In this document: positions 10,066-19,774 of the stretch, in pieces
Numbering within the stretch: the first letter of the stretch is position 1
How the letters are laid out: every line of letters starts with the position of its first letter
Source of the DNA: a virus
IMG/VR virus record: IMGVR_UViG_3300032118_000041
Span: 1-30,439 of that record
Reading direction: 5' to 3' (one strand)
Length of the DNA stretch: 30,439 nt
Position numbers and translations under genes: made by a program
Notes under the pieces: model-generated
What the model saw: the letters and a program-made list of their open reading frames with translations, nothing else
The model's database searches: none
What the model was told of the DNA's origin: nothing

Positions 10066-10175
10066 CCTAACCCTCTGCATTTCAAATCCTTCTTGAATCC
10101 ACTTGCCAGGTCGAGCTATGGGGCGGCAGGGTAGCTCTATTGCCTTGTAGCTCTTCGTCTTATAGGAGGAATTGT

Positions 10176-10400
10176 ATGCAAAGGTGCTCAAAAGTAGAAC
10201 GTGGCGTGACCTGCTTTGATTGTGGTGCGTCGGAGATGGACGGCGACCTTCGTGTTTCTGGTTTTGGGGGGGACCACGTTTGCTTGGACTGTGAGTCTAC
10301 CCGTACGAATCAGGTCAAATTGCACGGATTGCTGGCTGTTGTGTGCGATCCAGCAGATCTGATGACGATGCATTCCTATCGTCCATCTGTTCCTTTTTAG
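10176..10400 (+). CDS. Unknown small zinc-binding-like protein
   Basis: Encodes 74 residues. ATG 10176 is chosen because AGGAGGA (10164-10170) sits five bases before it; an upstream TTG frame start has no SD. Cysteine pairs CFDCG (about 13-17) and CLDCE (about 36-40) are spaced like a zinc ribbon. It lies directly upstream of the large terminase, where some phages encode small terminase or HNH proteins, but it has no HNH or helix-turn-helix signature. Confidence 0.55.
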   Translation: MQRCSKVERGVTCFDCGASEMDGDLRVSGFGGDHVCLDCESTRTNQVKLHGLLAVVCDPADLMTMHSYRPSVPF

Positions 10401-10445: not shown

Positions 10446-12491
10446 ATGTCAGTTGGGCTTGACCTGTCGGAAGACCTGCATCCTCTGCTGGCCGCGTCGG
10501 CGTCAGCGTACTCCTCGCTTCTTCAGTGTGCCCGTGTGGATTTTCCGACTTTTTGCTCCCTTGTATTGCGGGACGAAGAGAAGGGGGAGCCGATTACGCT
10601 CATGCCGTTCCATTTCGAGTGGAGCGACGTGCTCGAGAAGAATCGGAACGTGGTGCTCTGGACGCATCCAGATGCCGGGAAGACCTCGTTGATGGCTATC
10701 GCCCGGCCGTTGTGGGTTCTGGGGCGGGATCCTCGACAGCGAATCGCCGTGTTGAGCGCCACGCAGAATGCTGCGAAGAAGGTCATCCGTACGATTCAAG
10801 GCTACATCATAAACAGCAAAACTCTTCGTGACGTGTTCCCAAATCTCCGCCGAGGATTGTTTTGGACCGATTCGGCTATCGAAGTGCGGCGTCCGAGCGG
10901 CATAAAGGATCCATCGGTGCAGGCCTACTCTCCTGAGGGTGGGAATATGCAGGGGGCCAGGCTGGACGGTCTCATCGTTGACGACGTCCTCAACGAGAAC
11001 AACACGCGGACGAGGTATCAGCGGGAGAAGATAGAGGAGTGGATCCGCTCATCGGCGTTTACGCGACTGTCGGAGGATGCGTGGATCGCGTTCCTTACGA
11101 ACGCCTGGCATCCGGATGACATGGCGCATGTTCTCGAGCGGCAAGGGTGGTGGGCAAAACGGTATCCCGTGATCGACGACGCTGGGCGCTCGACGTGGCC
11201 GGAACGCTGGCCGTTGTCTCGCATCGAGCATGTGCGCACGAAGACGCTGGGGCCGGTGGAGTTCTCGAGGCAGATGCTTTGTCAGCCACGGGACGAGAGC
11301 ACGGCGAGGTTCAAGCGTGAATGGATTGAGACGTGCCTAGCTCGTGGTGAGGGTCATCCGCTGGTGCAGGACCTGAACGACTTGGCGGCTCGGTATCCGA
11401 TGCTTGCAGAGGCATTTCAGATCAATGATTCGATCCTCGCCATGGGAGGTTTGCCCGATAACGTGATGGTTGTTTCTGGCGTGGACGTGTCGACCGGGCG
11501 AGAGAAGTCGGATTTGTCAGTGATTTTTACGCTGTTGACCTGGCCGGATGGGTCTCGACAGATTCTTGAAATTCAGTCTGGTAGGTGGCAGGGACCGGAG
11601 ATCATCGACCGGCTTGCTTCGGTGCACGACCGGTTTCGATCAGTAATGGTTGTAGAAAATAATGCGGCCCAAGAGTTTATTTTACAGTGGACCAGGGAGA
11701 AATATCCTGGTCTCCGCGTTCGGTCGTTCACGACAGGGAGGAACAAGCTCTCGCCCGAGTATGGTGTGGAGAGTCTCGCGGGGGAGCTTGCGGCCGGTCG
11801 GTGGATCATTCCATGTCAGCAAGGAAACCGTATTGTAGACCCTCAGGTTGGGAAATGGATTTCTGACCTCGTTGGGTACGATCCTGGCAGGCATACCGGC
11901 GACCTGCTTATGGCATGCATCGCACCTGGGTATCTCGTGGTGACGAAGCGCGGCCTCGTCCCGATTGAACAAGTGGTTCGAGGGGACTTCGTCCTCACCC
12001 ACAAGTCGAGGTGGCAGGAGGTCACTGGGACGACGTGCACATGGTATCGAGGGGACGCGGTCCGGTTGCGCGCCTGCGGGTTTGTAGAGATTCTCATGAC
12101 CGCGGAGCATCCGGTATGGTCGGCGTTGCCATGGGTCAACCCTGAGCATGAGACGATGGCGGTTCCTCATGCATGGGATTTCCGTTCAGCCGTGTCACTT
12201 CGTGCTGGAGAAGGACCGCAGAGTGATTTCGTCTTTGCCCCGGAGGTTCCAGACGGCATGCAGGAGGATGGCGCTGGTGACGTTGTGCGTATTGAGTACG
12301 CACGTCATGTGATGTACGAGGGGCTTGTCTACAATTTGCACGTCAAGCATGATGAATCTTTTGTGGTCGAGGGGATTGCCGTGCATAACAGTTGGTTTGC
12401 GCGAGAAGCATCGCGCATGTACGAGACGCATCGTCGAAAGCGTAAGGAACGACAGGCGGCGCAGAGCAATGTAAGAATCTTGGGGAAATAG
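10446..12491 (+). CDS. terL: Terminase large subunit carrying a mini-intein
   Basis: The 681-residue precursor gives a 523-residue TerL after removal of a 158-residue intein. The N-terminal ATPase has a Walker A-like HPDAGKTS (74-81), Walker B LDGLIVDD (173-180), and a motif III-like FLTNAWHPDD. The C-terminal RNase H-like nuclease has GVDVSTGREKSD near 345-356, VVENNAAQEF near 402-411, and the last acidic motif HTGDLLMA at 483-490. TerL pumps DNA into the prohead through the portal and cuts it. The intein sits directly after LLMA, and extein sequence resumes SWFAREASRMYE, so the two sides rejoin into a normal TerL tail. SD AAGGTAGA precedes ATG. Confidence 0.95.
   Translation: MSVGLDLSEDLHPLLAASASAYSSLLQCARVDFPTFCSLVLRDEEKGEPITLMPFHFEWSDVLEKNRNVVLWTHPDAGKTSLMAIARPLWVLGRDPRQRIAVLSATQNAAKKVIRTIQGYIINSKTLRDVFPNLRRGLFWTDSAIEVRRPSGIKDPSVQAYSPEGGNMQGARLDGLIVDDVLNENNTRTRYQREKIEEWIRSSAFTRLSEDAWIAFLTNAWHPDDMAHVLERQGWWAKRYPVIDDAGRSTWPERWPLSRIEHVRTKTLGPVEFSRQMLCQPRDESTARFKREWIETCLARGEGHPLVQDLNDLAARYPMLAEAFQINDSILAMGGLPDNVMVVSGVDVSTGREKSDLSVIFTLLTWPDGSRQILEIQSGRWQGPEIIDRLASVHDRFRSVMVVENNAAQEFILQWTREKYPGLRVRSFTTGRNKLSPEYGVESLAGELAAGRWIIPCQQGNRIVDPQVGKWISDLVGYDPGRHTGDLLMACIAPGYLVVTKRGLVPIEQVVRGDFVLTHKSRWQEVTGTTCTWYRGDAVRLRACGFVEILMTAEHPVWSALPWVNPEHETMAVPHAWDFRSAVSLRAGEGPQSDFVFAPEVPDGMQEDGAGDVVRIEYARHVMYEGLVYNLHVKHDESFVVEGIAVHNSWFAREASRMYETHRRKRKERQAAQSNVRILGK
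11916..12389 (+). other. Mini-intein (Hint domain) in TerL, residues 491-648
   Basis: The sequence starts at Cys491 with the splicing block A pattern CIAPGYLVVTKRG...PIEQV. Block B is TAEHPVW (552-558), with the usual Thr and His. Blocks F and G end VYNLHVKHDESFVVEG and AVHN (Asn648), followed by Ser as the +1 residue. At 158 residues there is room only for the splicing domain; no LAGLIDADG or HNH endonuclease block is seen. All residues needed for standard Cys-type splicing are present: Cys1, the TxxH His, penultimate His, terminal Asn and +1 Ser. It is therefore probably active but unable to home by itself. Confidence 0.92.
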
Positions 12492-12493
12492 TT

Positions 12494-12617
12494 GGAGACC
12501 CGCCCAAACGCGGGGGGGATGACATCTGGGCGGGTCTCCTGGCTACCACGTCATGGTAGCTCAGCGACGAGCCAGGGGTGACCGGTGCCGAGAGGACGGT
12601 CACATGGCAGGCTGCCA
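12494..12617 (+). other. Cluster of four hairpins downstream of terL, possible structured RNA
   Basis: The gap between terL and the gene at 12672 holds four adjacent inverted repeats. The first is a perfect 12-bp stem (12494-12505 with 12528-12539; 22-base loop containing GCGGGGGGG). The second is a perfect 7-bp stem (12542-12548 with 12554-12560). The third is a perfect 7-bp stem (12578-12584 with 12597-12603). The fourth is 5 bp (12605-12609 with 12613-12617). The 8-base GGTAGCTC occurs at 12555 and again at 12633, so GCTACC at 12542 has two possible partners, allowing a switch. There is no T-run directly after the large stem. It could be a terminator or processing region, or an uncharacterised RNA. 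Confidence 0.5.
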
Positions 12618-12671
12618 GCCTTCCATCGAAGCGGTAGCTCGGGTGCAGAGTCTATAGAGTTTTTGGGCGTC

Positions 12672-12923
12672 ATGTCAAATGCAACGTCTGTAACTTTGAT
12701 CTGTGACGTTTGTGGGCATCGCCTCGGTGACCTTTCGGCCGGGTACTGTCGTCAGCTTCCGTTCCCCTGGAAGGGATTCGAAGTTGCTTCGGTTGTGGGC
12801 CAGTTTCACGTGTGCTCGGCGGTTTGCGAGGCGCAGCTTCGGATACGTTTTTGCGGGTTGGAGCCGTCTGTATCATGGGGTGTTCTGGAGGAGGAGCCTG
12901 AAAATGGAGCTGGAGAGCTATAG
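12672..12923 (+). CDS. Unknown small zinc-ribbon-like protein
   Basis: Encodes 83 residues from ATG 12672; the frame opens earlier (12585), but those codons lie in the hairpin-rich leader. Cysteine pairs CDVCG (about 11-15) and CSAVC (about 46-50) suggest a zinc fold with a hydrophobic core between them. The SD is weak. The gene ends inside the next one, which starts at 12904. Function is unknown. Confidence 0.5.
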   Translation: MSNATSVTLICDVCGHRLGDLSAGYCRQLPFPWKGFEVASVVGQFHVCSAVCEAQLRIRFCGLEPSVSWGVLEEEPENGAGEL

Positions 12924-13137
12924 ACGTCGACGTACGTCTGAACCTTGGGACCTGGCGCGTTCGAGGTGGACTGTAGATATTTTTGCACTCGTTATTGCTG
13001 TAGCTGTCGTTTGTTGTTTCCTGGTGGGATCGGAAATATTTGGGGGTGACGAGGTGGTGATCGATGACAGCTTGCAGGATAGTTTGTGGGATGATACGTG
13101 CGATTCGGAGATCTTCGTGATAGCGTCGCCAGCATGA
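12904..13137 (+). CDS. Small single-pass membrane protein
   Basis: Encodes 77 residues; ATG 12904 has an excellent SD (GGAGGAGG) inside the upstream coding sequence. A basic N-terminus (YRRRR) precedes a strong membrane helix at about 23-44 (TVDIFALVIAVAVVCCFLVG), then an acidic tail. The orientation is likely N-in. Small membrane proteins at this place in phages may be holin-like or affect head assembly at the membrane; nothing decides between these. The stop overlaps the portal start by ATGA. Confidence 0.6.
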   Translation: MELESYRRRRTSEPWDLARSRWTVDIFALVIAVAVVCCFLVGSEIFGGDEVVIDDSLQDSLWDDTCDSEIFVIASPA

Positions 13138-14924
13138 CTGATACGTCGCGAGAGTTTCCGAGGCACACGACGGTGAAGGCTCGGATTGCCGGCGCTGACG
13201 TCCATGCGCCAGCGTCAATACAGGACGAGCAGGCGGACATCCTTGGGGGACTTTTTCGTCAAGCCCAGGTTCTTGCGCCAGTTTACGATCCGTTGGTTCT
13301 CATTCGGTGGTACGAGAATTCTGGGGCGCTCGGCCCAAATGTGCAGGCGTACGTTACGAACATTGATGGTCTTGGGCATCGGTTTGCGCCACGAATTGAT
13401 TTGAACTCTGACGCTTCGTTTGAGCGCGTTCGCGACGCTATGTGGCTTGAGCGCGTTTCAGAAGCGGAGGAGCATGTCAGTCTTCCTGGGGCATCCCTTC
13501 AGCCAAACGCAAATGACCCTGTGCATTTGCGACCCTCCGATGCGGAGGTCGCCCTGGCTATCGAGGGTCTCAAAATTCGGGCACGGCTTGAGTATGGAAA
13601 GCTCGTGTCATTTTTTGAGCATGTCAGCCCGTCGAGTTCGTTCGTTACGCTTCGGAGAATAACCCGGCAGGATATTGAGATAACTGGAAATGGTTACTGG
13701 GAATGTTTGAGGGATCGGCAAGGACGGCTTGCTCGATTTGTACACGTACCGCCCTCATACATGCGTTGTACAGGCTTGGATGTCGATCCGATTATTGTGA
13801 CGGAGCGGGTTCGCCATGGGCTGAGTTGGGAAACAATTCGACAACCTCGTTTTTTCAGGCGATATGTTCAAGCCATCGGGGCAAAGCTTGTTTGGTTCAA
13901 GGAACTCGGAGATCCGAGGGTTGTATCGAGGGATACAGGCTACGTCTATTCGGATATTGCCACGTTTACGAAGCATGCCGGACAGCACGATCAACCTGCA
14001 ACGGAAATTGCGCACTTCAAAATATACGCCACGGGCGAGCCGTACGGGCAACCTCGTTGGATTGGAAGTTTGTTGTCGGTGTTGGGGTCGCGAGCCTCAG
14101 AGGAAGTGAACTACAATTATTTTGACAACAAATCCGTTCCTCCTCTGGCCTTGCTCGTGTCAGGTGGCCGGCTTGCGGCGGAATCCGTCGCCACGATTGA
14201 GACATACATTCGAGACAATTTGCGTGGCAGAGAGAATTTTCACAAGATTCTCGTGATAGAGGCTGAGACAGATAACGATCCGTTGTCCCCTCGAGAAAAC
14301 CCAGTGATAAAGATGGAACGGCTCACCGACGCACAGCAAGGCGATGCGCTGTTTCAAAAATACGACGAGAGAAATACCGACAAGGTTGGATCTTCTTTTC
14401 GACTGCCTAGGTTGTTGAGAGGAGACGTTCGTGATTTCAACCGCGGGACGGCTGAAATGGCTCTACGTTTTTCAGACGAGCAAGTGTTCAATCCGGAACG
14501 TACAGAGTTCGATTCGTGGGTAAATCGAGTTGTATTTTCCGAGCTTGGAATTTTGTTGTGGCTATTTCGGACGAACGGACCCCAATCTCGAGATCAGAGC
14601 ACAGGGGCTGAGGTTATTTCGAGTTTGTCAAAGGTTGGAGTTATTACTCCAAATGAAGGTCGGGAGTTGGCGAGTGACATCATGGGATGCGCGTTTGCAC
14701 CCATCGAAAAGGACTGGGCAAAGCAACCGCTGCAGTTGACCATGGTGGAGCTGACCATGGGTGACACGAATTCGTCGCTGCCGGGGGTGCAACGACAGCC
14801 GGCCCAACCGTTTGTCGGAATTGCTGGTCCAGCATTGCCACAGGTGGCGGATACGACGCTTCAGGATCTTGACGAGGCTGTCGGGAGGCTTTCTCGAAAA
14901 TCGAGTGAGGAGGATGCTCAGTGA
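13134..14924 (+). CDS. Phage portal protein
   Basis: Encodes 596 residues from ATG 13134, coupled by ATGA to the membrane-protein gene; a GTG at 13098 in the same frame is less likely. The protein shows the long portal pattern: an N-terminal segment with YDPLVLIRWYENS and VQAYVTNIDGLGHRF, then ITGNGYWECLRDRQGRL, a wing and stem region with EIAHFKIY and EPYGQPRW, and a helical C-terminal region after GDVRDFNRGTAE. This resembles portal proteins of the PBSX/HK97-like group. The portal dodecamer forms the DNA entry vertex, where TerL docks. Its position right after terL and before the protease and capsid genes agrees. Confidence 0.88.
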   Translation: MTDTSREFPRHTTVKARIAGADVHAPASIQDEQADILGGLFRQAQVLAPVYDPLVLIRWYENSGALGPNVQAYVTNIDGLGHRFAPRIDLNSDASFERVRDAMWLERVSEAEEHVSLPGASLQPNANDPVHLRPSDAEVALAIEGLKIRARLEYGKLVSFFEHVSPSSSFVTLRRITRQDIEITGNGYWECLRDRQGRLARFVHVPPSYMRCTGLDVDPIIVTERVRHGLSWETIRQPRFFRRYVQAIGAKLVWFKELGDPRVVSRDTGYVYSDIATFTKHAGQHDQPATEIAHFKIYATGEPYGQPRWIGSLLSVLGSRASEEVNYNYFDNKSVPPLALLVSGGRLAAESVATIETYIRDNLRGRENFHKILVIEAETDNDPLSPRENPVIKMERLTDAQQGDALFQKYDERNTDKVGSSFRLPRLLRGDVRDFNRGTAEMALRFSDEQVFNPERTEFDSWVNRVVFSELGILLWLFRTNGPQSRDQSTGAEVISSLSKVGVITPNEGRELASDIMGCAFAPIEKDWAKQPLQLTMVELTMGDTNSSLPGVQRQPAQPFVGIAGPALPQVADTTLQDLDEAVGRLSRKSSEEDAQ

Positions 14925-15736: not shown

Positions 15737-18700
15737 ATGGAAGATTCTTTTTCAGCGGTGGTGGCGAGTTTTACCACGGAAACTATCTCAGGACAGGGAG
15801 CGTTTCGAGTGAGCAAATTTGAGCCGCCTCGTGGCGTGTTGCCGGCGCTCAAAGTTCCGGATCCACAATTCCTTGTAAGACGGCTGCGCCAGGGGGAGTC
15901 TGCAGCGTTGCTCTCTCGTCGCCAGCGTACCGAACGAATCGGAGATCCCCAGGCGCTCGTGAACGAGCTTTCCCAGAGCAACCCAAAGAGCGTGTTCGTA
16001 TGGGCCGTTGTCGCTCAAGACGCCCCGATAGCCATGGCTTCAATGGTTGAACTGTCCAAGGAGCAGCGAGCTGGAATAGACCCGCTGACGGCTGAGGAAT
16101 TTTCAACCGAGAAGAACATTTGGTATTTGCCGCTGCAGCTCGTGGTGGTGTTCGATCCTCCGTTGCAGCTTCGGCAAGCTCCAGAAGGACGACGCTTTGG
16201 CGGCGAGGTTGACTTTGACCAGGATGTAGTCAAAGCCGTTGCGTTTGACGTGATGCAGTTTGTTGCTGCACCAGATCCTGAGCGACTACGCTCTCTCTCA
16301 GATGAGGACTTGAGGACTGCCCAGAAAGATTTGATCCTGTGGTTTACGGAATATTTTGCTGGGAATTCATCTAACAGCGGAGGCGGCGCTTCACGAGAAG
16401 ACGTTGTCAACGCCTATATTTTCGTAATGGAGGAAGGTCGTCGGAGGGGGCTCGAGTTGACGTCCGATCCTGGATTGGATGGGGCGGCTGCAGTTCTCAA
16501 GTCTGTTATAGCCCCAAAGTTTGCGGTGATTCATCCGAGCGGACTCGGGAAGCATCATGACGATCCGGCGACCTTGGACGAGGTGTTGGCGCATTGGTCC
16601 CAACCGATGGCCCTGCGAATGCCGGCGGTCTTTTTGGTGGGGTCGCTGTGCAACCATCGGAAGTCGGACAACGACATTGACGTGCTCATTCGGGGTCCGT
16701 TGGATGAAGAGACCCGGCATGTGATCAAGTTTCGGCTTGGCCGCGCCTTGCCCCCTCGGCTGTCTTCCAGGGTTCAGTTTCATGACGATTCGCAGGGGGG
16801 TCCGTTCACGACCCACGTTCCGTTGTACGATTTGGTGCTGGTTCCGCATGCCAGAAAAGTCCAAATCGAGATGGTAGCAAAGCAAGACGATCCGCTTCTA
16901 GACTGGCCGAAGAAGCTTGGGGAGCGGTCCGGAGTTCTACAGGCTCATTTTAGGGGGTCAGGCTACCATCTCGACCTACGTATGCAGGTCGCCGACTATC
17001 TGGTTGGATGGACGATTGCGGCGATGAAGCCTGGAATCACTGGGAAAGTGGACACGATTGAGGAAGCCAATCGTGTCATGGCTCCATTTGATATGGAGGG
17101 GTCTGCGGCCAACAAGGTGATGATTCTTCCGAGCCGCGTCTACGCCGTTCCGAAGTCGAGGCAGTCCCTCGAGTGGCTGACGATTGGGGACGTGGTGTTC
17201 GAGCCAGGGTCTGTGGGAGCGACGCGATTTGAGGCAGGCGTTTACGTCGAGCTGGCGAAGCTCAAAGTTGAATGGGGCAAACAGGATCCCCATTTTCATG
17301 AATATTTTGTGTTTGGCACGCCAGAGTTTGAGGGGACCTTGACGTTCCGCATGCTCGAAGGCGGCGCTAGCCGGTCTACTGAAGATCTCACTGGCACGGG
17401 CGAGATGTTCTGGACGTCCGGATTTGCCAAGGTTGCGCTGCCTTCGATCCTTCGCAGTCGTTCGGTGGAGACTGGCGCGATGCCTCCGCTTGGGCAGTCG
17501 GCGATGCCCTCGTCGTTGATGGCGATTACGCCACGCGAGTTTCGGTTTTGGGAGGCTGACGGGGAGGCTGAGGCCCGAAAAATTCGAGATACATTGGTGT
17601 CCTCCAAGTTTTTCACTGAGGAGAACGTTCGGTTCGTTGACGGGGATTACACGAGAATTTCCACCAAGGTGCGTTCCGACGCCATCGACGTCGAGCAGTT
17701 TGATAAGCAGGTTCGTGTTTCGGACTTTGTGCTGTCCTGGCAATATTGGAAGGGGCAGACCGTTGTTCGTGGGACACCCAGCAGGCAGATTTTTCATCTG
17801 ATGCTCCCGATTTCAGCGGGAGGGCGTGTACAAGATTTTCAACTGCAAATTGATCCTCTATCAGGTGAGGAATCCATTTTGGCGGCCTTGGTTGAGGGCA
17901 GCGATGAGCTTCTGACGTTTGAGGGGGATGTCTCCCCAGGGCTGGAAGTTGGCGGAATTCACCTGAACAATACAAAGGCAACACCTTCGACACTGAAGAT
18001 AATCGACCAGGGAAAGGTCGACGTGTTGGATGACCAGCCAAACTTCAAGAAGCTTCGGTTTAGGGGATCGAAACTGAAAGGCTTGTTTACGCTGGTCCTG
18101 GAAGAAGTCGGAAGCGACTTTTGGGTTTTTTCGCCTGGAGGTGTCCCCTCTCGGAATGCGCCCTCGATAGAAAAGTCCGTTCGTGTGCGGGAGGACGGAA
18201 TGCAAATGTGGGACATCGCATCGAGGTCTGAAACTGACGACCGGGGTGGAGACCGCGAGAAACTTCGGCCTCCCGCTCTGTTTCAGCCGATGAAGCCTGC
18301 GCCGCGTCCATCCAATCGATTCACAGATCCCGAGACGGCAGCTCGCGAAGCCTTTACCGACGCCCTCCTTGCGGATGGCGTTCGAGTTGAGCCAAAATAC
18401 AACGGCTTTCGAGCAATCGCGGAACGATGGGAGGCCGGACTCGACGATGGTGCTTTGGATGATGGTGTGATGATTTATACGGAAGATGCGCAGCGCGACC
18501 TTGCTAAGATCCTGCCTGGCCTGACAAAGGATTTGGAAGGCCTCGGGGGGAGCTTCATTCTTGACGGCGAGATCATGGCGCTTGTGCCAGGTACCACTGA
18601 TGAGTTTCTCCCCCGTGCAGATTTGGCGCAGTTCCGAGGGTCAGTGCCCGCTGACGATGAGCAGCTCCGGTTTGTTGTGTTTGACATGCTGTATCACCCC

Positions 18701-19774
18701 ACGTTGGGGAACCTCCTTGCGCAACCGCTTGCAAAACGAGAGGCGAGTTTGGGTTCTTGGTGGCTCGAGCATAAGGGTTCGGCCCCACATATTTTGAAGG
18801 CCCCAGGGTTGCTTGCAGTTTCTCGGGAGGAACTCCTTCAGCGGATGAAGGTGATGAGTGCAAAGCCAGGGTCTGAGGGGGCGATGCTCAAACAGATCGG
18901 CTCCACCTACTCGCTCGGTGGGGAGCAGGATTTGTGGGTGAAGGTGAAAGTCGTCCGTGAAATTCTCGCGATGGTTGTAGAACGACACGAGGTGAAAGGG
19001 TCGCCTGGCGTTTACAATTTTGTTGGTGCCATCGGTCCAATTCCAGAGGGGGAGCTGTCTCAGTGGGCTGAGCCTGTCGAACTGAACGGGAAGCATTGGG
19101 CGATGGTCGGTCGGACGGGAAACCGCAAACTAGATGCAAATGTCGGAGACGTTATCGCAACGACAACGACCGAAATATTTTTCGAGGAGGGGCCTCCGAT
19201 TCGCGTTAGGTGGTTTGGGCCGGCGCAGGCACTTGCGAAGGTTGATATGCCTCCGACAACGATTTCAGAATTGAAGGCGTTGCTTCGTCCAGGAGAGATC
19301 TCCTCTGGTTCAAAGGACGCCTTAGCGGTTGACAAGTCAGACATGAAAAACGTTCGCAAGGATGGCCGTGCAGTGCGTATCGTGAAGGCTGTGGAGCCTA
19401 CCAAGGACACCTCCGAGCGATATGTGTTTGGCGTGGTGCTGATTCCAGATGAGACTGATGCGCAGGGCGACGTGTACACGGCTGCGGACGTACGCAAAGC
19501 TGCTCATTCGTTTTTGGAATTTTTCGGTGGAAAGTTTCGGGTTATGCACCAAGGTGAGCCGATCGAGGGTATACAGGTTTTGGAGTCCTACCTCGCCAAG
19601 CAACCAGAGACGCACGGGGAAGAAACGTTTCCGATTGGGACATGGTTCTTGGCTTCCAGAGTTAGAGACGACAAAATATGGGCGGCCATTCAGGCGGGTG
19701 AGTTTACTGGATTTTCAATGGGCGGCACAGCATTGCGAGAAAAGCTTTCGTCCTGTAACAATCGCGAGATATAG
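15737..19774 (+). CDS. Fusion: nucleotidyltransferase, phosphoesterase-like, ATP-dependent DNA ligase, XkdF prohead protease
   Basis: Encodes 1345 residues without a frame break. Residues about 1-230 are beta-rich, then helical, and not recognised. Residues 299-318 (GS, then SDNDIDVLI, with Asp313 and Asp315) match the Pol-beta-type nucleotidyltransferase motif. Residues about 400-560 resemble the LigD 3'-phosphoesterase (His404, His411, Asp413, Arg415; later FHEYFVFG). A second, more divergent copy may lie near 640-810 (KLKGLFTLVLEE). The ligase follows: EPKYNGFR with Lys887, LDGE at 942-945, FDML, EGAMLK at 1047-1052, and WVKVK at 1067-1071, then an OB-like tail. Residues about 1210-1338 are XkdF-like, with VMHQ (His1271) and GFSMGG (Ser1327). 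Ligase is normally a separate early protein, so this fusion is unusual. It lies between portal and scaffold, the usual protease position. Confidence 0.85.
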   Translation: MEDSFSAVVASFTTETISGQGAFRVSKFEPPRGVLPALKVPDPQFLVRRLRQGESAALLSRRQRTERIGDPQALVNELSQSNPKSVFVWAVVAQDAPIAMASMVELSKEQRAGIDPLTAEEFSTEKNIWYLPLQLVVVFDPPLQLRQAPEGRRFGGEVDFDQDVVKAVAFDVMQFVAAPDPERLRSLSDEDLRTAQKDLILWFTEYFAGNSSNSGGGASREDVVNAYIFVMEEGRRRGLELTSDPGLDGAAAVLKSVIAPKFAVIHPSGLGKHHDDPATLDEVLAHWSQPMALRMPAVFLVGSLCNHRKSDNDIDVLIRGPLDEETRHVIKFRLGRALPPRLSSRVQFHDDSQGGPFTTHVPLYDLVLVPHARKVQIEMVAKQDDPLLDWPKKLGERSGVLQAHFRGSGYHLDLRMQVADYLVGWTIAAMKPGITGKVDTIEEANRVMAPFDMEGSAANKVMILPSRVYAVPKSRQSLEWLTIGDVVFEPGSVGATRFEAGVYVELAKLKVEWGKQDPHFHEYFVFGTPEFEGTLTFRMLEGGASRSTEDLTGTGEMFWTSGFAKVALPSILRSRSVETGAMPPLGQSAMPSSLMAITPREFRFWEADGEAEARKIRDTLVSSKFFTEENVRFVDGDYTRISTKVRSDAIDVEQFDKQVRVSDFVLSWQYWKGQTVVRGTPSRQIFHLMLPISAGGRVQDFQLQIDPLSGEESILAALVEGSDELLTFEGDVSPGLEVGGIHLNNTKATPSTLKIIDQGKVDVLDDQPNFKKLRFRGSKLKGLFTLVLEEVGSDFWVFSPGGVPSRNAPSIEKSVRVREDGMQMWDIASRSETDDRGGDREKLRPPALFQPMKPAPRPSNRFTDPETAAREAFTDALLADGVRVEPKYNGFRAIAERWEAGLDDGALDDGVMIYTEDAQRDLAKILPGLTKDLEGLGGSFILDGEIMALVPGTTDEFLPRADLAQFRGSVPADDEQLRFVVFDMLYHPTLGNLLAQPLAKREASLGSWWLEHKGSAPHILKAPGLLAVSREELLQRMKVMSAKPGSEGAMLKQIGSTYSLGGEQDLWVKVKVVREILAMVVERHEVKGSPGVYNFVGAIGPIPEGELSQWAEPVELNGKHWAMVGRTGNRKLDANVGDVIATTTTEIFFEEGPPIRVRWFGPAQALAKVDMPPTTISELKALLRPGEISSGSKDALAVDKSDMKNVRKDGRAVRIVKAVEPTKDTSERYVFGVVLIPDETDAQGDVYTAADVRKAAHSFLEFFGGKFRVMHQGEPIEGIQVLESYLAKQPETHGEETFPIGTWFLASRVRDDKIWAAIQAGEFTGFSMGGTALREKLSSCNNREI

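Follow-up and report, generated by a model that had tools for sequence, protein, structure and literature searches.

A putative minus-strand small RNA with a C-rich loop between terL and a small CxxC gene of an uncultivated virus

Small RNAs with a strong stem and a loop in which at least six C follow one another are typified by 6C RNA (RF01066) and mycobacterial B11. In 6C RNA the runs are of 6-8 C, and a second C-loop hairpin helps to name the family (PMC4046766). The C-rich loops of B11 act on a G6 tract in the 5′ UTR of the target, and in Mycobacterium abscessus a G6-tract message was still repressed when one of the two C-rich loops was mutated (PMC10470900). Phages provide a second type of precedent, since λ OOP and aQ, P22 sar and BTP1 STnc6030 are short RNAs that have their own promoters and lie opposite phage genes (PMC12197685). 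A third is found in plasmid copy control, where CopA, RNAIII of pIP501 and RNAII of pMV158 carry stem-loops complementary to a leader, and where recognition in most systems is by loops (PMC4485353).

Here we describe a locus in a 30,439-nt stretch of viral DNA (IMG/VR record IMGVR_UViG_3300032118_000041; hereafter the window) that shares features with all three groups. We consider that the locus is probably a minus-strand small RNA gene, with a probability of roughly 0.6. To our knowledge, hardly any small RNAs have been annotated in uncultivated phages, because such RNAs lack a sequence family. The putative RNA differs from 6C RNA in its architecture, having one C-loop hairpin and a rod where 6C has two C-loop hairpins in ~75-100 nt, and in its setting, being phage-borne, antisense to late genes and located in contigs of uncultivated viruses. 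It would resemble the phage antisense RNAs in being short and opposite phage genes, with a candidate promoter of its own, but it occupies a gap instead of overlying a gene body, and the single feature that a relative retains is a homopolymer loop. Like the plasmid RNAs it has stem-loops complementary to a leader; unlike them it is associated with no replication gene, the downstream gene encodes an uncharacterised CxxC protein, and the YUNR loop motif was not seen.

The gap (12492-12671) is bounded by the stop codon of terL, at 12491, and by the ATG, at 12672, of a small ORF. All flanking genes are on the plus strand: terL (10446-12491) encodes the terminase large subunit with a C-terminal Hint mini-intein, the small ORF (12672-12923) encodes an 83-aa protein with a CxxC ... 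CxxxC pattern, conserved in L004, L017 and L019, and the portal gene (13098-14924) ends the flanking context. The original prediction placed four stacked hairpins in the gap, the longest with a 12-bp stem. The underlying repeats are real, and include both 7-bp stems (GCTACCA/TGGTAGC, 12542-12548/12554-12560; GTGACCG/CGGTCAC, 12578-12584/12597-12603) and a short palindromic stem inside 12604-12626, but the first stem is of 13 bp rather than 12 (perfect, 12494-12506/12527-12539, with a loop of 20 nt). It exceeds every other perfect inverted repeat of the window in length; the longest class seen, 13 bp exactly, was represented 0.075 times per shuffled window (3 in 40 shuffles) when loops were limited to ≤40 nt. 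The duplication of GGTAGCTC was also borne out, with copies at 12555 and 12633; a third copy lies at 10130, giving three matches in the window where 0.39 are expected.

Folded as minus-strand RNA, positions 12485-12645 reach −84.1 kcal/mol (z = −6.63; 0 of 200 shuffles as good), with a centroid identical to the minimum-energy fold and a well-defined ensemble. The minus-strand locus was also the outlier (−7.2; next −3.7) in a survey of ~380 windows of 160 nt that covered the two strands of the entire stretch, in which z is approximate, being based on 15 shuffles per 160-nt window and a fixed s.d. of 4.2. Folding had been proposed as a check of the original prediction, and on that check the plus strand is only mildly unusual, being somewhat more stable than shuffled sequence (z = −1.68 for 12480-12660 and −2.35 for 12485-12645). 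There is, as predicted, structure at the locus; on the minus strand, however, the repeats form not four stacked hairpins but one rod of ~100 nt followed by one long 3′ hairpin. The rod (12542-12638, minus strand) is a long imperfect hairpin closed by GCTACC/GGTAGC pairing, and has a z of −3.42 when folded alone. In the 3′ hairpin (12494-12539, minus strand), G-U pairs lengthen the 13-bp stem to 18 bp, with a loop, CAUCCCCCCC (12512-12521), that includes an apical run of seven C (12512-12518; G7 on the plus strand). In the window and in G001, a 67-kb relative, no hairpin on either strand was found to be stronger. The RNA (12485-12642, minus strand) would be ~150 nt long, with a 5′ end near 12642 and a 3′ end shortly past 12494. 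Termination would occur at the very strong 3′ hairpin, after which the tail (AACUAUUUCC) is weakly U-rich, not that of a textbook terminator.

A predicted promoter is positioned appropriately for such an RNA. TTGACA-N18-TAGACT (12678-12649) is the sole σ70-like site scoring ≥10/12 on the minus strand of the window; for an uncultivated virus, such matches to the σ70 consensus are weak evidence. The −35-like hexamer TTGACA (12673-12678) overlaps the first codons of the 83-aa ORF, and lies 18 nt from the −10-like hexamer TAGACT (12649-12654); an alternative −10-like sequence, TATAGA (12651-12656), has a 16-nt spacer. A start 6-7 nt downstream of the promoter would fall at ~12642, where the structure begins. 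On both strands of G001 there are three sites of ≥10/12 quality, one of them the promoter-like site of the locus. Among 364 promoter-like sites in 20 contigs, a hairpin of ≤−25 kcal/mol lay within 15 nt at only two, namely the corresponding locus of a distant relative (G002) and a second candidate in G001; the window's own hairpin is outside the 120 nt scanned in this control because the rod precedes it. The criteria for promoters and hairpins were chosen after inspection of the data, although the control was run with one fixed set of thresholds. GAGTCTATAGAG did not recur as a phage-specific promoter.

The locus is present in a relative with 95% identity (L003 in G001), and L002 has the same region as L003; an exact search for the rod pattern in viral_contigs matched only the two known 95% contigs. 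In L003 the hairpin and both promoter hexamers are kept, and all three differences from the window between the hexamers are confined to the spacer. The minus-strand RNA of L003 has a z of −5.58, with a best rod fold that differs from that of the window. Substitutions between the two do not significantly favour pairing, with 3 minus-strand pairs broken where 4.5 are expected (P = 0.21).

A similar arrangement occurs in a more distant phage. The TerL of L017 (G002) is 63% identical to that of the window and has no intein, and between its terL stop codon and the small ORF is a 19-bp perfect hairpin with a minus-strand z of −8.90. It surpasses in length every other perfect inverted repeat in the 108 kb of G002 and is, as in the window, the strongest hairpin found. 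Its place and strand are the same, but its stem is unrelated; the loop is UCCCCCCC, and the 3′ tail (UUUCGCUC) is again weakly U-rich. Upstream of the hairpin by 11 nt is TTGACG-N18-CACAAT, one of only four promoter-like sites of ≥9/12 in 217 kb of strand. The window, L003 and L017 each have only one C-run loop. In L004 (G003; TerL 64% identical) the terL gap has just a short palindrome in place of the long hairpin; G003 does have, at 33251-33309 (L097:13251-13309), a 24-bp hairpin of −50.5 kcal/mol with the loop AUCCCCCCCA, located in the C-terminal part of an ORF and lacking a promoter. In the other related contigs, no hairpin among the strongest listed carries a C7 loop. More distant relatives with a traceable terL have no long repeat directly after it, and in several of them the next start lies within a few bases of terL. 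The arrangement at the terL gap is seen in two independent lineages only. With L017 TerL and portal as queries, one closer contig was found (portal 82% identical), which ends before the gap. TerL alignment in genome_contigs gave a single distant match, and among the tblastn matches listed for TerL in phages all were <30% identical.

We found no known family at the locus, in agreement with the original suggestion of an RNA element of no recognised class. No Rfam model matched at its gathering score in the window or in most of three related contigs, and matches at the locus with E values up to 10 were all below the cut-off; these weak hits (Scr3202, Scr3920, RsmY and Rhizobiales-2) were rejected, and were probably driven by the GC-rich hairpin. 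The RF01066 model has a gathering cut-off of 47 bits, which was not reached, and gave no match at the locus even at E = 10; its best score in the relatives was 19 bits, outside the locus. Given this lack of a match and the absence of a second C-loop hairpin, we do not classify the putative RNA as 6C. ARAGORN found no tRNA or tmRNA. BLASTN gave no match to annotated phages, either for the region or for the surrounding 7 kb, and none to annotated plasmids for the region. Tyrosine integrase (PF00589) was not found in three related contigs, so that family gives no sign of lysogeny.

The strand-specific fold, the promoter and the conserved loop point to one phage small RNA at a precise place. From these computed features, together with the repeats, the correct placement of the promoter-like sequence and the recurrence of the arrangement in a relative, we infer transcription, the ends of the RNA, a target in trans and any effect. 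In the model that we propose, a small RNA gene would be transcribed against the phage late operon from its own σ70-type promoter (12678-12649), and the ~150-nt product would fold into a rod on its 5′ side and a hairpin of 18 bp that doubles as the 3′ end and exposes (CAU)CCCCCCC in its apical loop. Given that the loop is kept in the distant relative with a wholly replaced stem, we propose that the loop is the working part. We reasoned that complementarity in cis alone would not preserve the loop through replacement of the stem. This suggests a partner in trans for the C7 loop, most simply a G-rich message, an argument drawn from two lineages at the terL gap and one hairpin elsewhere (in G003). 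The loop might then pair with G-rich stretches of other transcripts, such as ribosome-binding regions of the phage or its host, in the way that 6C and B11 use their C-rich loops; a further pairing, in cis, might form with the G-loop that the complementary leader of the late mRNA carries. We propose this action in trans only tentatively, at rather less than even odds. A duplex scan for RNA targets within the window gave no clear winner, and, outside the locus, the window clade and L017 were not seen to share any G7 target. If correct, the model would provide an example, open to experiment, of a viral RNA that turns a C-rich loop on messages rich in G, and such RNAs might be found by the trio of opposite strand, promoter and strongest hairpin of the genome. 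It is doubtful, but conceivable, that the locus represents a family of phage small RNAs, not described before, opposite the packaging/head operon, with the UCCCCCCC loop as sole conserved part, that silences G-rich ribosome-binding regions of the host or of rival phages; such a family would be a viral counterpart of 6C/B11.

The same minus-strand RNA might instead act only in cis, its target being the complementary leader that separates terL from the gene downstream, either by loop-loop kissing of UCCCCCCC with GGGGGGGA, as in plasmid copy control, or in the manner of λ OOP and aQ or BTP1 STnc6030, which act on genes of their own phages. We regard this as a possibility of limited probability, nearly as likely as action of the C-rich loop in trans. 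Consistent with it, the RNA spans almost exactly the gap (12494-12642), that is, the leader of the 83-aa ORF, and its strand is opposite nearly all genes of G001. There is also precedent in phage antisense RNAs (PMC12197685) and in plasmid systems, which begin with kissing loops (PMC4485353). However, complementarity in cis is automatic, and so leaves unexplained why only the loop is retained in L017 when the stem is replaced.

The original prediction read the locus on the plus strand, and suggested that the structure may be a processing site, packaging RNA, attenuator or switch. We consider a plus-strand element of the late mRNA, whether a processing site, a stabilising hairpin at the 3′ end of terL or an attenuator that switches via the duplicated GGTAGCTC, to be improbable. 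The first stem does begin 3 nt past the terL stop codon (7 nt in L017), and in the 12604-12626 hairpin two changes between the window and L003 leave the pairing intact, through G-U pairs, but do so on the plus strand alone. However, the plus-strand z of the locus (−1.7 to −2.8) lies among the values obtained elsewhere in the window, two A-U pairs of the first stem become A-C in L003, the stem is not followed by a T-run, and the switch partner is not conserved in L017. The stability outlier, the promoter-like site and the shared feature are all on the minus strand, which argues against the plus-strand element as first proposed.

Slightly less probable again is a functionless mutational footprint, in which polymerase stalling at G7/C7 and template switching would have generated long inverted repeats flanking the run. 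This would account for the very long C7-loop hairpins in three phages, including the promoterless one in an ORF tail of G003, but would not explain the use of the same gap and strand, with promoter-like sequences, in G001/window and G002, or the additional rod domain. Finally, readthrough of the terL stop codon and other coding readings are contradicted by L003: an N-terminal extension of the downstream ORF (from GTG 12585) and a minus-strand ORF (12343-12603) are both open in the window, but the L003 alignment has an in-frame TGA in the former and a 1-nt indel that shifts the latter, making it very unlikely indeed that the segment is coding.

Several observations concern neighbouring parts of these genomes. 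The small CxxC...CxxxC protein family occurs between terL and portal in the window (12672-12923), L003, L004 and L017, and upstream of portal only in L019; it has no Pfam or PHROGs match, and a search for the family found no new members. Just upstream of terL, another small CxxC-protein ORF starts at 10176. Its leader has a GGTAGCTC hairpin (10113-10153) and the ORF itself contains the window's only other GGGGGGGA (10266). As a lead, this GGGGGGGA and the sole other GGTAGCTC (10130) lie ≤140 nt apart, and are complementary to motifs of the putative RNA. The mini-intein of TerL (~155 aa; LLMA|CIAPGYLVVT...EGIAVHN|SWFAREASRM) is present in the 95% relative and absent from L004 and L017. Elsewhere in the window, a 1345-aa ORF (15737-19774) combines an ATP-dependent DNA ligase domain (879-1071) with a C-terminal XkdF-type S78 protease (1222-1334), and 912-2162 encodes a 416-aa IS605 OrfB/TnpB-like protein with a Cas12f1-like TNB domain. 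The second candidate antisense small RNA of G001 (L092:4190-4372) overlies the 3′ end of an opposite ORF, and has CTGACA-N18-TACAAT with a strong hairpin 7 nt on; the loop of this first hairpin is C-rich (CCUUCCCCACC), two further hairpins follow, and z is −3.56.
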